Positions 2,741-10,497 of a DNA stretch of 38,059 bases are shown one piece after another. The notes under the pieces were generated by a model. It was given only the letters and a program-made list of their open reading frames with translations. It had not been told where the DNA came from and ran no database searches. Position 1 is the first letter of the stretch. The number at the start of each line of letters is the position of its first letter. A program made the translations under genes and the position numbers. This DNA is from Nitrospirota bacterium (GTDB lineage: Bacteria > Nitrospirota > Nitrospiria > Nitrospirales > Nitrospiraceae), in NCBI GenBank assembly GCA_005887945.1, contig VBOL01000018.1, forward strand, positions 1 through 38,059, given 5' to 3'.

Positions 2741-2960
2741 CTCAGCCCCCATCCCTGAAGAGATAGCGAGCGAGCTTGGAAGGATCATTCCTACGATAAA
2801 AGCATTGAGCGTTCGACGCGCGCAGTTGGGATCATCCCAGCCACCCCCAAGTGAAAAGGTAGGGGAGAAGCGCATCAAATTCTAGGTGTCACTGTAAGGA
2901 GTTCTGGGAGTGAGAAGGAATTGGCGAGGAGCACATCCGCATACACAGTGAGAGCATCAC

Positions 2961-3428
2961 ATGCAACACAGTGGTCTTTTCAATCTGCAGACACCTCGCG
3001 ATCTTCTGGCAAAGGCCGAGCGTGATTTTAAGCGGCTCCGGGAGAATCCTGCTAATGCAGATGCAGCGTTCGACTTCTTCGTTACAGTTCGCCACTTGCC
3101 AGATTGGCTATATCCCAGTCCTAGTGACAAACAGCAGTGTAAAGCACTCTTCAAAAATCATGTCGAGTTGCGCATTGCACGTCACATTGCAGACGGTGCA
3201 AAGCACTTTAAGGTCACGCAACCACAGCATACGCAAGTGGTAGGTACCTCGGCATTGTTATCGGTGCCTCAGTCTGGCGGGATGCCTCAACCAGGTCCAG
3301 CTCAGGTTAAAGACCTTATCATTGAACTGGACACGCGAGATCCCGATACCGCCAAGCTCGGCCAAAAAGTGTATGTCATGGAGCTTGCGGAGCGCATTCT
3401 CGCTGTTGCCAGAAAGATTGTCTCGTAG
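2961..3428 (+). CDS. hypothetical protein
   Basis: 155-aa ORF, longest in region, plausible composition; no recognised domain. Confidence 0.55.
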   Translation: MQHSGLFNLQTPRDLLAKAERDFKRLRENPANADAAFDFFVTVRHLPDWLYPSPSDKQQCKALFKNHVELRIARHIADGAKHFKVTQPQHTQVVGTSALLSVPQSGGMPQPGPAQVKDLIIELDTRDPDTAKLGQKVYVMELAERILAVARKIVS

Positions 3429-4008: not shown

Positions 4009-4037
4009 TTGACAGCCCTTACCATGGTATGTAACAT
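4009..4037 (+). promoter_or_regulatory. sigma70-type promoter TTGACA-N17-TAACAT
   Basis: TTGACA at 4009-4014, TAACAT at 4032-4037, exact 17-bp spacer, directly upstream of the ATG at 4046. Confidence 0.7.
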
Positions 4038-4047
4038 TTTGTGACAT
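4029..4047. promoter_or_regulatory. candidate operator: inverted repeat ATGTAACA-TTT-TGTGACAT
   Basis: 8-3-8 inverted repeat with 7/8 arm matches, overlapping the -10 box and start codon of the XRE-S24 regulator. Confidence 0.5.
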
Positions 4048-4591
4048 GACGGCCAAACAGTTCAGGCAGGCGCGGGTTCGGTTGGGGTACACGCAGGCGA
4101 AGTTGGCGGAGGTGCTGCAACTGAGCCGGATGACGATCAGCCGCTATGAGGCCGGCAGGTGGGAGGTTCCTTTGTCGGTCGAGATGGCGCTGGACCAGTT
4201 GGGGTCGTCACAGATTCCTATGTTGGGGATGGTGGCGGCCGGGGCGCCGATCGAACCGATTACGCAAGCTGAATTGGTGGCGGTGCTGCCGCCGTTGTTG
4301 CGCAGGGGAGAGACCTTCGCGCTACGGGTGAAAGGCGAGTCGATGAAGGACGACGGCATTTTCCCCGGCGATTTGGTGGTGGTGCGGAAGCAGGGTACCG
4401 CGCGGAATGGGCAGACGGTGGTGGCCTTAGTCAACAATGAAGCTACGATCAAGAAGTACTACCGCAAGGACGGTCGGATTGAACTGCATCCGGCGAATGC
4501 AGCGATGAAGCCGATCATCGTGTCGTCACAGGACGAGTTTTGTATTCAGGGAATTGTCGCGGGGGTGATTCGCCACTTCAACGAATCGTGA
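4046..4591 (+). CDS. XRE-family HTH / S24 (LexA-like) peptidase-domain regulator
   Basis: N-terminal HTH (RLGYTQAKLAEVLQLSRMTISRYEAGRWEVP), C-terminal S24 fold (MLGMVAAGAP...FALRVKGESMKDDGIFPGDLVVVRK...VVALVNNEATIKKYYR). Confidence 0.9.
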   Translation: MTAKQFRQARVRLGYTQAKLAEVLQLSRMTISRYEAGRWEVPLSVEMALDQLGSSQIPMLGMVAAGAPIEPITQAELVAVLPPLLRRGETFALRVKGESMKDDGIFPGDLVVVRKQGTARNGQTVVALVNNEATIKKYYRKDGRIELHPANAAMKPIIVSSQDEFCIQGIVAGVIRHFNES

Positions 4592-4599
4592 GGTGTTCT

Positions 4600-5310
4600 A
4601 TGGCTCTGGTGCAGCAACAGGCGATTGAGTTTTTGTTTCGCACAGAAGATGGCGGCGCGGTCATCGATGCGCCTCGCCATCTGCTGGCGGCGTTACGGCA
4701 GAGTGCGGTGTCGACCGATCAGCCGAAGGGGTTGGTGCTATTGTCCGGACCGCCGTCGGTCTATCGACTGGGCCTCTGTGCCGCGGTCGATCGCGCGTTG
4801 GCCGGCGAACCGGTGCTGTATCTGGCCGGCGCCAATGTCTTCGACCCATTCTTGGTGGGGCGGCTGGCTCGGGCAAGTCGGGTGGCGTCAGCTCAGGTGC
4901 TGCAACAGATTCACGTCTCACGGGCCTTCACCTGTCATCAGATGGTCCGGTTGGTCACGGATTGTCTCCTGTCGGCGTTGCGCACCTATGATGCGCGATT
5001 CGTCATTCTCGCCGGTCCGCTCGACACGTTGTACGATCAGTCGGTGCCGGAGCCTGAAGCGATGCGCCTCTTTCGTACCATGACAGAGGCCCTGCAGGAC
5101 ATGGCCTACCAGGGTGTGCAGGTGCTGTGCGTGAGCCCGCTCGCGCCGCCTGAATCCGGCGGACGCAGCCGATTTATGGCGGCACTCCGTGCGCAGGCGC
5201 GCCGGGCGATCGATGTGTGCGAGGCCGAGGACGGACTGTGGCTCCATGAAGAGGGAGGGCCTGAGCCCAAACGCTGGATGATTCCGCGTCCGCTCTGGAA
5301 TCGGTTGTAA
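4600..5310 (+). CDS. RadA/RecA-like (ImuA-analogous) protein with degenerate Walker A
   Basis: P-loop position reads LLSGPPSVYRLGL instead of GPPGSGKT; Rad51/RadA-like 'VLQQIHVSRAFTCHQMVRLV', Walker-B-like strand 'ARFVILAGPLDTLYD'; 8 bp after the regulator stop. Confidence 0.65.
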   Translation: MALVQQQAIEFLFRTEDGGAVIDAPRHLLAALRQSAVSTDQPKGLVLLSGPPSVYRLGLCAAVDRALAGEPVLYLAGANVFDPFLVGRLARASRVASAQVLQQIHVSRAFTCHQMVRLVTDCLLSALRTYDARFVILAGPLDTLYDQSVPEPEAMRLFRTMTEALQDMAYQGVQVLCVSPLAPPESGGRSRFMAALRAQARRAIDVCEAEDGLWLHEEGGPEPKRWMIPRPLWNRL

Positions 5311-5312
5311 GC

Positions 5313-5603
5313 ATGGGGCGCACGCTTGCCACGTTCACGCAATTGGTCCAGCAGGAAATCGATTCGTGGAGCCGCTACCGGCGTGCATTGCGGCGTGAGG
5401 ATCAGCAGGCGCTCGATGTGTTGTTCGCCGCCGCCCGCCACCATGCGTCCGCCGGCGCCTATCTTGCGCGTGAGACACCGTTCGAAGTGATGCTGCTGTC
5501 CATGTTAATCGAACAACAGAAACACGTCGTCACGTTGCAACAGAAAGTGATGACTCTTGAAACCCGCATGCACCACGACTCGACTCAAGGGATGGCTTCT
5601 TGA
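5313..5603 (+). CDS. small helical protein in PolB cassette
   Basis: 96-aa ORF, starts 2 bp after upstream stop, overlaps PolB start; 'EIDSWSRYRRALRREDQQALDVLFAAARHHASA...LLSMLIEQQKHVVTLQQKV'. Confidence 0.75.
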   Translation: MGRTLATFTQLVQQEIDSWSRYRRALRREDQQALDVLFAAARHHASAGAYLARETPFEVMLLSMLIEQQKHVVTLQQKVMTLETRMHHDSTQGMAS

Positions 5604-7800
5604 TGTCTACCCGGCACAAGAGGGCATGGTCGTCTGGCTCGTCGGCGAGGACGGTCGCCGCATCAGAGCCATCGATCCCTTTGTGCCGACGTGCTATCTG
5701 GCGGCTCCGCCGTCCATCCGCGAGCACGTGTTCAGGTTACTCCGCCGTGCCTCCTGTCGTATCAGCACCAGAGAGGTAGAGCGATATGAACTTGGCGCGC
5801 CTTGTCCGATCTCGGTGCTGGAAGTTTCGGTTCACGCTCCCGCGCAGTTCTCGTCCCTCACGCAACATCTGATCCGCGCCTGTCCCGACGCGCAGTTCTT
5901 TCACGTGGATGTGTCCCTGCCGCAGCGCTACTTCTACGACCGGGAACTCTTCCCTCTGGTCCATTGCGAGGCTGACCTTACAGCCGAAGGCCGGATTCAG
6001 TCGATTCAGGCGCTGGAGTCGCCCTGGGACACGGACTATGGTTTCCCACCGCTCACGATCATGGAGCTGTCGCCGGACAGTCCGTCGCCCAACCCGAATC
6101 ATGGCGGGCATGGCTCGTTCGTGGTGCGGATGGATGGGGAGGAGCGTCTGTTGGAAGGCGATGATGCTGACGTAATCCAGCGCCTCAACCAGCTGCTCGT
6201 GCGACAGGACCCCGATATTCTATTAACGGACTGGGGCGATTCCTATCTTCTGCCGCGTCTCATGATCATGGCGGATCAGCTGCGCATGCCGCTCGAGCTC
6301 AATCGCGATCCCCATCGATCCATCGGCACCAGGAAACCCCGTTCGTATTTTTCATACGGCCGTATCCTGTCCCATGCTGGTGCCCGTATTCTGTCGGGAC
6401 GGTTGCATCTCGATCGGCACAATTCCTTTGCGCTGGCGGAAACGGGCCTGGCCGGTCTCATCGAGCAGGCCCGTATCGCGAAGGTCGATTTGCAGCAGAT
6501 GGCCCGCACGACGACAGGGACGGGGATCACCTCAATGCAGCTCGAAACGGCTTGTCGCGACGGTCTGTTGATTCCCTATCGGAAACAGGAGCCGGAAGCC
6601 TTCAAATCCGCGCGCGAGTTGCTGCAGACCGATCAGGGCGGATTGGTATTTGCGCCGATCGTCGGCTATCACGAGCAGGTCGGTGAGCTGGATTTCTCTT
6701 CTATGTATCCCTCCATCATGGTGCGCTTCAACATCTCGCCCGAAACGATCAATTGCCCGTGCTGCCGCGATGAGCCGGCCGCACGGGTGCCGGAGATCGG
6801 CCATCACACCTGCCGCCATCGCCAGGGATTGGTGCCTCGCACGCTGGCCCCGTTGCTCGACAAGCGCGTGCGGTACAAACGGCTCATGGCCGCGGCGACA
6901 CAGCCGGCGGCGAGGGCCGTGCTCGATCAACGGCAAACGGCGCTCAAGTGGCTGCTCGTCGTCTCGTTCGGTTATTTGGGGTACAAGAATGCCCGGTTCG
7001 GCCGGATCGAAGCACACGAATCCGTGACCGCCTACAGCCGTGATCTGCTGCTGCAGGCCAAGGAGGTTGCCGAGCGGCAGGGCTATCGCATGCTGCATGC
7101 GATTGTGGATTCGCTCTGGTTCGTCAAACCCGGCGCAGTCAGGGCAGACTACAACAGACTTGCGCAGGAGATCACCGAGCGGACGGGGCTCTCGATCGGC
7201 CTGGAAGGGCTCTATCACTGGATTGGGTTTCTTCCGTCACGGGTCAATCCGCTCATGCCGGTGCCGAATCAGTTCGTGGGCCTGTTTGACCATGGAGCCA
7301 TGAAAATCCGCGGCATCGAAATCCGTCGCAGCGATGCGCCGTTTCTCGTCAAACGGGCACAGGCGGAGGTGCTGCGCTGTCTGAGTCAGGCACGGATGCT
7401 GGCCGAGTTGCGTGAACAGATTCCTCAGGCATTGGAGATTGTCCGTATCTATCGGCGCTATCTCCACGATGGTCACGCCACCGTTGAGGAACTGGCCATT
7501 ACCAAATCCCTCTCGAAAGAGCCGCAGGCCTATCGCCATCAGACCTTGTCGATGATTGCGGCGCAGGAACTGCTCGCGCGCGGCGTGTCGCTCCAAGCCG
7601 GCGACACGATTCACTACATCATTACGGATGCCGACGCGGCTTATCTGCCAGACCGGGCGCGTGCGGTGGCCGGACTCGATGGGACCTGGAGCTACGATGT
7701 CTCGGCCTATGACAGCCTGCTTTTGAAGGCGGCCCTCGTGCTGTTGACGCCCTTGGGCGTGACGGCGACCTCGTTGAACGAATCTACTGCAGGATGCTAA
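5557..7800 (+). CDS. divergent family-B DNA polymerase (PolB2-like), TTG start
   Basis: Motif A 'LDFSSMYPSIM', motif-B region 'KWLLVVSFGYLGYKNARFG', motif C 'HAIVDSLWF', 'GLVPRTLAPLLDKRVRYK'; exonuclease motif positions degenerate. Confidence 0.88.
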   Translation: MKPACTTTRLKGWLLDVYPAQEGMVVWLVGEDGRRIRAIDPFVPTCYLAAPPSIREHVFRLLRRASCRISTREVERYELGAPCPISVLEVSVHAPAQFSSLTQHLIRACPDAQFFHVDVSLPQRYFYDRELFPLVHCEADLTAEGRIQSIQALESPWDTDYGFPPLTIMELSPDSPSPNPNHGGHGSFVVRMDGEERLLEGDDADVIQRLNQLLVRQDPDILLTDWGDSYLLPRLMIMADQLRMPLELNRDPHRSIGTRKPRSYFSYGRILSHAGARILSGRLHLDRHNSFALAETGLAGLIEQARIAKVDLQQMARTTTGTGITSMQLETACRDGLLIPYRKQEPEAFKSARELLQTDQGGLVFAPIVGYHEQVGELDFSSMYPSIMVRFNISPETINCPCCRDEPAARVPEIGHHTCRHRQGLVPRTLAPLLDKRVRYKRLMAAATQPAARAVLDQRQTALKWLLVVSFGYLGYKNARFGRIEAHESVTAYSRDLLLQAKEVAERQGYRMLHAIVDSLWFVKPGAVRADYNRLAQEITERTGLSIGLEGLYHWIGFLPSRVNPLMPVPNQFVGLFDHGAMKIRGIEIRRSDAPFLVKRAQAEVLRCLSQARMLAELREQIPQALEIVRIYRRYLHDGHATVEELAITKSLSKEPQAYRHQTLSMIAAQELLARGVSLQAGDTIHYIITDADAAYLPDRARAVAGLDGTWSYDVSAYDSLLLKAALVLLTPLGVTATSLNESTAGC

Positions 7801-7912: not shown

Positions 7913-8075
7913 GGGATATTCATCTGTTGCCCATAACCTATGGGCCATTGGGTCTCCTGCATGCCACAACATTTTCTCCCGCAGCCCGCTAGCAGGATGC
8001 GTTCAAACCTGTCCGCATAGTCGGTCCTTGCCTTCAGTTAACCCTCATCCAGAGCTAATTTGCGCGGGGTTAGCA

Positions 8076-8090
8076 TGGCACCCATCTTGC
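8076..8090 (+). promoter_or_regulatory. sigma54-type -24/-12 promoter candidate
   Basis: TGGCACCCATCTTGC: GG-N10-GC spacing, TGGCAC-N5-TTGC; upstream of ORF at 8147. Confidence 0.5.
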
Positions 8091-8146
8091 GGAAATATCA
8101 TGGCTTCCATGTGCAGGAAAGGGCGTTACATGAAAAGGGGGATACG

Positions 8147-8530
8147 ATGGCACCAGTGTTGGAACTCGATCGGCAGACAGCCTCGTTTGTGCGGCAACTC
8201 GAAGAACAGCGGAAGCTCGAAAAGACGCTTCTGGTCGAACGGGTCCGCGGAACGAAAGAAGGGCTGGAGTCGGTCTTCAGCGACATCAAGAGCCGTGTGG
8301 CGGTGCTGGAGAAGTTGAACGGGTCGGCGAAGTGCAGCTGTATTGCGCCGATCGGCTGGAGCAAACTGATCTTTACCGGAGCGGATAGTGTCTCGGCGCC
8401 GAATACCATCGGATTCGGCGATCGGGATGAAACCCTGTGCAAGCTCGATCAGATCAAATACCTTGAAGACACGCACTATATCCGGCTTGCTGCGAATCCC
8501 TACTCCGTGGAGCATGGTGCTGCCGAATAA
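8147..8530 (+). CDS. hypothetical protein, N-terminal coiled coil
   Basis: ORF with ATG at 8147 after AAAAGGGGG; 'MAPVLELDRQTASFVRQLEEQRKLEKTLLVERVRGTKEGL'. Confidence 0.6.
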   Translation: MAPVLELDRQTASFVRQLEEQRKLEKTLLVERVRGTKEGLESVFSDIKSRVAVLEKLNGSAKCSCIAPIGWSKLIFTGADSVSAPNTIGFGDRDETLCKLDQIKYLEDTHYIRLAANPYSVEHGAAE

Positions 8531-9264: not shown

Positions 9265-10497
9265 CTATGAATAGAGGGTGCGAGCGATTTCTGTCGTGTT
9301 GAACAGCATCGCGTTGAGACGAGTATAGGCCGCGTGCCCGTAGTAGTGGTCGCGCACATTGGTTGACCCGGTGGAATCTTTATAATCGGCAAGCAGGCAT
9401 CGGCCCTCACTCGGAAAGCGCACGGCGCGCCGCGCACATTCCAGCCAGCGTTCGAAGCCATCGTAGGGCTCGACCAGCTCCCACACCGCTTTGTTCGCGG
9501 CGTTGGCGGCTTCTGCCGTCGGCATGGCGTCGCTTCCTGCCACCGCTAATTCCTGCACATAGTCGCCACCCCACGCGATCGGCATTTCCATCGTGATCTG
9601 GGGCAACTCCATCTTCGAGAGCCAGGTCTTGCCGTCGGTTCGCATGTTTCTGTGGTTGACGATGTGCAGCAGTTTGCCCATTCCAGAGGGATCCCACCCG
9701 TAGCGTACCGGCATGCCAAACGTGACAACGTCCAGCGCCGCTCCATTGAGGAGGGTGCCATTCGACAGCAACGGAGTGACACGTTGGATCGTCGAGGTGA
9801 TGTCTGGTCGATTGACTTGCGAGGCAAAAGCCGACAACAAGTCGAGCAGTCGCGTCCGGCCACTGGTCGAGGCCATACATAAGAGGTTCGAGACGAGGGC
9901 GAGGACCAACCCTGCCTGCCCATGAGCCTGCACGAGGACCCGATCTCCTTGGCCCAGCTTGTGGGCCTCGCCCCAGTCGCGAAGACGTCCGAGCATCGAG
10001 ACGGCCGCCATGGCACGGCCCAGGTGATGGTGTTCACAGGACCAGAGCTCACGGACGCAATGGATCGGACGATCCAGGCCTCGGTTGAGCGACTGTCTCA
10101 TCAGTTCCAGGTAGGTGTTTGTGAAATTGCCGGCATCCCCGATCTGCTCATCGAGCAGCCTCTTGATGGCGTCATCATTCGCGAGCGGTGGCTTCAACCC
10201 GCCGGGCAGCTGTGAAATGCCATTGTTGCTTTCCCGCATCAGGGCCAATAAGGCATCGAGGCCCGCCACGCCGCGCGAGTAGCCACGTTTGAGCCCGCCT
10301 AGCTCATCCAACCGTTGCACCCCAAAGACGTCGCTCCCCATGATGGAGCCGTGCAGCAAGACGATCACGCGGACACTGGTTTGCGAGAGGCGCTTGCCGA
10401 GCGCAGCCATCGCGTCCTGTCCGGAGGACGACTCTATTAGGGCAGTCGGGGCGACCTCACGAACGGTGAGGCGATCCCCGGGATTCTTTCGTGACAT
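9265..10497 (-). CDS. hypothetical protein, possible alpha/beta-hydrolase-like
   Basis: 410-aa ORF; 'VRVIVLLHGSIMGSDVF' resembles strand/oxyanion region of alpha/beta hydrolases, 'GQGDRVLVQAHGQAGLVLALVSN' resembles a nucleophile-elbow region without a clear GxSxG. Confidence 0.6.
   Translation of the reverse strand: MSRKNPGDRLTVREVAPTALIESSSGQDAMAALGKRLSQTSVRVIVLLHGSIMGSDVFGVQRLDELGGLKRGYSRGVAGLDALLALMRESNNGISQLPGGLKPPLANDDAIKRLLDEQIGDAGNFTNTYLELMRQSLNRGLDRPIHCVRELWSCEHHHLGRAMAAVSMLGRLRDWGEAHKLGQGDRVLVQAHGQAGLVLALVSNLLCMASTSGRTRLLDLLSAFASQVNRPDITSTIQRVTPLLSNGTLLNGAALDVVTFGMPVRYGWDPSGMGKLLHIVNHRNMRTDGKTWLSKMELPQITMEMPIAWGGDYVQELAVAGSDAMPTAEAANAANKAVWELVEPYDGFERWLECARRAVRFPSEGRCLLADYKDSTGSTNVRDHYYGHAAYTRLNAMLFNTTEIARTLYS

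Follow-up and report, generated by a model that had tools for sequence, protein, structure and literature searches.

Operons that join the family B polymerase PolB2 to an iRadA protein and a small protein called PPB2 (arCOG07300) have been described together with lexA in bacteria, for example in Leptospirillum ferriphilum (LFML04_0990-0993), and an inactive polymerase with a structural or regulatory role was proposed for them (Makarova 2014, PMC4104785). Later work modelled a PolB2:iRadA:PPB2(3) mutasome (a 1:3:1 complex for PolB2:PPB2:iRadA) in which the conserved MGRT arm of PPB2 is predicted to join PolB2 and iRadA, and reported that bacteria show only the order iRadA-PPB2-PolB2 and that lexA is enriched near these operons (Timinskas 2025, PMC11791011). 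Dpo2 of S. islandicus, which shares the loss in polymerase motif C described below, is an active extender (PMC11791011, PMC8764526), and Sulfolobus Dpo2 is damage-inducible and required for targeted mutagenesis (PMC11791011). Here we describe a four-gene cassette from a Nitrospirota bacterium of the family Nitrospiraceae, found in a stretch of 38,059 nucleotides (the window; VBOL01000018.1 positions 1 to 38,059, G000:C180), which is very probably a PolB2 mutasome under the control of a LexA-type repressor. The kind of operon and its association with LexA are already published (PMC4104785, PMC11791011), whereas the unusual repressor, the DNA switch and the swapping with another mutagenesis cassette appear to be new.

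A PolB2 operon headed by a non-canonical LexA

The cassette comprises four open reading frames of the plus strand, separated by 8 bp and 2 bp and then joined by a 47-bp overlap, so that an earlier note on this DNA, which had described a one-strand cassette with this spacing behind one promoter, is borne out by the reading frames and by a TTGACA-17-TAACAT promoter. Its features are as follows.

4009 to 4037, plus strand: sigma-70-like promoter found by scan (-35 TTGACA, 17-bp spacer, -10 TAACAT)
4029 to 4047, no strand: predicted operator ATGTAACATTTTGTGACAT, with a 17-bp core TGTAAC-N5-GTGACA at 4030-4046; it shares bases with both the -10 hexamer and the start codon
4046 to 4591, plus strand: LexA-like repressor of 181 amino acids, XRE (CI-type helix-turn-helix) plus S24 (HTH_3 + Peptidase_S24)
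4600 to 5310, plus strand: iRadA of 236 amino acids, Rad51/RadA family, without the N-terminal domain and without Walker A
5313 to 5603, plus strand: PPB2 (arCOG07300-like) of 96 amino acids, small and helical, starting MGRT
5557 to 7800, plus strand: PolB2 (bacterial G2 group) of 747 amino acids, TTG start, overlapping PPB2 by 47 bp

The nearest relatives are metagenome-assembled genomes labelled Nitrospira or Nitrospirae, in which all four genes are retained, with proteins 65-97% identical. Because the gene order and the 47-bp overlap are also retained in these relatives and the ratio of non-synonymous to synonymous substitution rates (dN/dS) is low in genes 1-3 (~0.07-0.25), the four genes are, on comparative grounds, considered real.

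The product of 5557-7800 matches DNA_pol_B in Pfam (E 8.9e-40). Its motif A (DFSSMYPSIM) and motif B (KWLLVVSFGYLGY) are intact, whereas motif C reads IVDS in place of the DTDS of active family B polymerases, the first Asp being gone. This Asp is missing in 20/20 PolB2 proteins aligned, all of which retain motif B together with the motif A Asp and the second Asp of motif C. The exonuclease domain is present with a decayed active site (Exo I DxE and Exo II N..FD are absent in the alignment), and by its motifs the polymerase carries the hallmarks of bacterial PolB2 (G2). Searched as a single protein, the product of the second gene has a weak and non-significant likeness to RadA (E 0.008-0.17); once 15 homologues are combined into a profile, archaeal RadA and Rad51 entries of the PDB are matched at E 1.4e-10, and the RecA-fold similarity that the earlier note expected of this gene is thereby recovered, in an assignment made wholly from sequence profiles. 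The segment GPPSVYRL stands where the P-loop (Walker A) would be. The window iRadA ends RPLWNRL; in a Terriglobia locus (L012:3423-4202) iRadA ends RQLRLF, which comes close to the canonical motif for beta-clamp binding. The product of 5313-5603 gave no Pfam match, begins MGRTLATFTQ, of which MGRT is the signature arm of PPB2, and, in several phyla, has homologues encoded at PolB2 loci. With iRadA, an MGRT-type PPB2 and the order iRadA-PPB2-PolB2, the cassette is by its hallmarks a PolB2 mutasome operon; it shares with the published operons the same genes, the bacterial order, lexA in the operon, the motif losses and the MGRT start, and differs from them in that its repressor carries a CI-type helix-turn-helix instead of the LexA winged helix.

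This repressor (4046-4591) matches HTH_3 (E 1.2e-08) and Peptidase_S24 (E 5.4e-30) in Pfam, with HTH_31 also matched, and it matches TIGR00498 lexA (E 1.1e-36) over the C-terminal domain only (residues 52-178). The canonical winged helix LexA_DNA_bind (PF01726) gave no Pfam match in the window repressor, and it does match the repressors of a PolB2 locus (L013) and of a locus with iRadA only (L090). The recognition helix reads LSRMTISRYE. From comparison with E. coli LexA, we take the self-cleavage bond to be A65-G66 (VAAG), with Ser99 and Lys136. The regulator is classified, from its domains, as a non-canonical LexA in which a CI-type helix-turn-helix is joined to a LexA-type S24 domain with a predicted cleavage bond. 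In Bacteroidetes, LexA proteins of the CI type are proven repressors of the SOS response (PMC8565304); there, HTH_3 + S24 repressors control error-prone polymerase genes and recognize short palindromes such as TTAC-N5-GTAA. Those regulons are broad and take in recA, umuDC and others, whereas the box of the window type is nearly confined to the regulator and a mutagenesis cassette.

The predicted operator and its pairing with the recognition helix

About one promoter of this kind is expected by chance in a scan of the upstream region; the promoter is nonetheless kept in orthologues whose farther-upstream DNA no longer aligns, and its -35 hexamer is invariant in 9/9 aligned upstream regions and can be seen in almost every further XRE-LexA locus. 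The aligned upstream regions of orthologues diverge apart from CTTGACAG and ATGTAACATTTTGTGACATGACGG, and the window operator is invariant or nearly so among them while the DNA farther upstream has diverged. Because the dyad overlaps the -10 hexamer and abuts the start codon, transcription is predicted to start at the repressor's own start codon or right beside it, and the mRNA is probably leaderless or nearly so.

At ≤1 mismatch, ATGTAAC-N5-GTTACAT occurs at only two sites in the window's genome, namely the window operator and a site upstream of a second XRE-LexA gene (site at G000:C310:32882-32900). The fetched region around recA holds no operator-type site at ≤2 mismatches. No broader SOS regulon using this box came to light, as judged by the number of sites and not by the genes beside them: the four other 2-mismatch sites of the genome equal the number found with a reversed-pattern control (4).

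A search that fixed the 6+6 form of the dyad and no part of its sequence recovered, in 75/75 readable XRE-LexA genes, such a 17-bp dyad (TGTAAC-N5-GTTACA type) placed 16-19 bp ahead of the start codon. Fifty of these dyads are perfect and 66 have ≤1 mismatch, compared with 3% and 29% respectively of random windows in which no position was required. Among 31 genomes, all 13 exact dyads precede XRE-lexA (12) or imuB (1). The half-site sequence follows the recognition-helix residue just C-terminal to the conserved Arg: Arg pairs with TGTGAC (9/9) and Leu (KRLA) with TGTATC (6/6), while TGTAAC or something close to it accompanies Val, Met or Gln (60/60). The Arg/TGTGAC state changes four times on a tree built from the C-terminal domain alone. 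A tree-corrected sign test yields three independent pairs on well-supported branches, all in agreement (p 0.25), and because three pairs cannot reach significance, the covariation, perfect in the 75 loci, is strong as a sequence pattern and not as a formal test. PolB2 or iRadA loci headed by a LexA of non-XRE type (L090, L091, L095, L010, L022) show a seeming dyad of another sequence at the start codon after TTGACA (GGTGTA-N6-TACACC type; ATGGTATTCATATGAATACCAT).

Probable alternative cassettes behind one type of switch

The survey covered 79 genomes of the same family as the window's genome. Homologues of the S24 regulator are present in 67 of them, iRadA in 22 and PolB2 in 16, of which G071 has fragments only. 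In 13/13 PolB2 loci with readable upstream DNA an S24 repressor lies directly upstream of the operon with iRadA in between, which answers favourably the question of co-occurrence that the earlier note had raised for the four genes. The XRE-LexA proteins linked to PolB2 do not form one clade (four changes, at least three of them forced by well-supported branches); therefore, the cassette has met different repressors.

The same repressor family also heads another kind of cassette. In 22 loci an XRE-LexA gene is followed by an ImuB-like gene, and two of these loci (L073, L074) could be followed into an adjoining DnaE-type polymerase gene (dnaE2); the ImuB-like protein of L074 has lost the Y-family catalytic residues (CFGIPAF, VMDLTG). 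Eight imuB genes that are detached from lexA have the dyad 6-69 bp upstream. In one genome that is 99% complete, an XRE-LexA-type box lies upstream of imuB (G023:C2:725308-725324) and no XRE-LexA gene was found. PolB2 and ImuB occur together in 2/15 genomes with substantial PolB2 (G057, G072), in a rough check uncorrected for relatedness. Neither imuB nor dnaE2 is in the window cassette, and the only Y-family gene of the window's genome is a DinB encoded elsewhere with an intact active site. We infer that one type of switch serves two alternative mutagenesis modules, PolB2 and ImuB-DnaE2.

The parallel with lexA-imuA-imuB-dnaE2 cassettes drawn in the earlier note thus holds, as the same XRE-LexA family and operator type are used for imuB cassettes in sister genomes, that is, even within the window's own family. 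Both arrangements are headed by a repressor and combine an inactive RecA-fold partner with a mutagenic polymerase. They differ in that the window polymerase belongs to family B, not C, and iRadA is RadA-like, with its relation to ImuA not shown; the sister imuB cassettes of the family have no ImuA between lexA and imuB.

Nine genomes carry iRadA behind lexA with no PolB2 found (G001, G033, G040, G045, G049, G053, G019, G031, G044), two of which are single-contig assemblies. The corresponding loci have an intact iRadA with no PPB2 or PolB2 nearby; six lie behind an XRE-LexA (L068, L070, L071, L092, L093, L094), L090 behind a winged-helix LexA, and L089 and L091 behind an S24 homologue. Because dN/dS of iRadA in the genomes devoid of PolB2 is ~0.05-0.24 where computable, iRadA is taken to be under purifying selection without PolB2.

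Genes flanking the cassette are syntenic among near relatives. In several near relatives this synteny with the cassette takes in two downstream reading frames of the window, 8060-8530 (no significant Pfam match, best E 0.17) and 9265-10497 (no Pfam match). Many stand-alone XRE-LexA genes are followed by a conserved pair encoding a coiled-coil-like protein of ~82 amino acids and a Cys-rich protein of ~60 amino acids (CxDCG...CxxC...CC), as at L028:3069-3320 and 2906-3088 (minus strand), with like pairs at L051, L053, L054 and L058; no significant Pfam or NCBIfam family was found for the pair.

Proposed mechanism and rival explanations

Gene order, the loss and retention of motifs, operator conservation and cassette linkage were observed directly; repressor cleavage, induction, assembly, polymerase activity and mutagenesis are put here as a conditional scheme. 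In an undamaged cell, the XRE-S24 repressor would sit on the dyad at 4029-4047, covering its own -10 hexamer and start codon and silencing the whole operon, a position at which bound repressor would block RNA polymerase directly. Upon DNA damage, RecA filaments would stimulate self-cleavage of the repressor (A65-G66; Ser99/Lys136) and the operon would be derepressed. The next step would be the assembly of iRadA, a PPB2 trimer and PolB2 along the lines modelled for other PolB2 operons; the resulting polymerase would lack proofreading and would extend beyond lesions and mismatched primer ends. Most likely, then, the cassette would make an error-prone DNA polymerase complex upon DNA damage, and the evidence from the operator and from cassette linkage argues for a locally autoregulated, RecA-dependent mutagenesis module. 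The host genome does contain recA, and since cleavage of the repressor would need this host RecA, the module is not fully self-contained; in other respects the earlier description as an S24-regulated mutasome-like module is supported. As in E. coli Pol V (UmuD'2C-RecA), a multi-subunit translesion polymerase would be damage-controlled and have a RecA-fold partner, although Pol V has an unrelated Y-family polymerase and an active RecA, and the likeness is architectural (argued in PMC11791011).

Several points weigh against a damage-induced mutasome. The two halves of the window operator differ by one mismatch, motif C lacks its first catalytic Asp, as in nearly all PolB2, and no clear beta-clamp motif was found at the C-terminus of iRadA or PolB2. 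The retention of iRadA without PolB2 in the nine related genomes indicates that it has some other role too, and no experimental test of a bacterial PolB2 cassette was found in the open literature. Because the first Asp of motif C is missing, polymerase activity rests on the Sulfolobus precedent, and the older view of PolB2 would have the polymerase catalytically dead and the complex serving a structural or regulatory purpose at stalled forks, still induced by damage. This was proposed by Makarova 2014 (PMC4104785) and accords with the loss of the motif C Asp, of the exonuclease residues and of the iRadA P-loop; however, all 20 aligned proteins keep motif B as well as the Asp of motif A and the second Asp of motif C, and S. 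islandicus Dpo2 with the same loss extends actively (PMC11791011, PMC8764526). We consider a dead polymerase improbable, and the term 'inactivated', under which the earlier note had placed these proteins, does not describe the activity of Dpo2 (PMC11791011).

The switch itself could be read otherwise. The presence of a second XRE-LexA gene, whose product could cross-bind a similar site, would suit a broad SOS regulon in which a distinct master LexA governs this cassette and recA alike, with the local XRE repressor left to fine-tune the cassette. Such an arrangement seems rather unlikely, given that the assembly (93% complete) holds only two S24 proteins and only two sites at ≤1 mismatch, one per regulator, and that the fetched recA region lacks a site even at ≤2 mismatches. 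It is very unlikely that the regulator is a phage-type repressor left behind by a mobile element, its position incidental and without any damage switch: a CI-type helix-turn-helix instead of the LexA winged helix and the patchy distribution of PolB2 (16/79 genomes) speak for it, but the S24 homologues are found in 67/79 genomes, each readable XRE type has its own dyad and several head mutagenesis cassettes, the exact dyads of the 31 genomes lie only before XRE-lexA or imuB, and the flanking genes are syntenic in near relatives.

Concluding remarks

The papers on PolB2 mutasomes do not mention the operator, the helix-operator covariation or the sharing with imuB cassettes, and no paper on this operator or on an exchange between PolB2 and imuB cassettes was found in a search confined to the open literature, which leaves absence unproven. 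For the family as a whole, we give about even chances to the view that mutagenesis in Nitrospiraceae is built from plug-in modules, in which a small CI-type LexA and its co-evolving start-codon operator would head interchangeable cassettes (the PolB2 mutasome, ImuB-DnaE2 or iRadA alone); a genome could then hold at least two mutasomes, each with its private switch, in place of a single SOS regulon, and iRadA would work without PolB2. The helix-operator pairs offer a ready set for studying repressor specificity, and the swap of PolB2 and ImuB-DnaE2 behind one repressor family provides a route to ask whether unrelated mutasomes share a job. The bacterial PolB2 mutasome, which is poorly studied, is hereby placed under a specific and testable switch in Nitrospira-type bacteria, organisms that matter in soils and wastewater.

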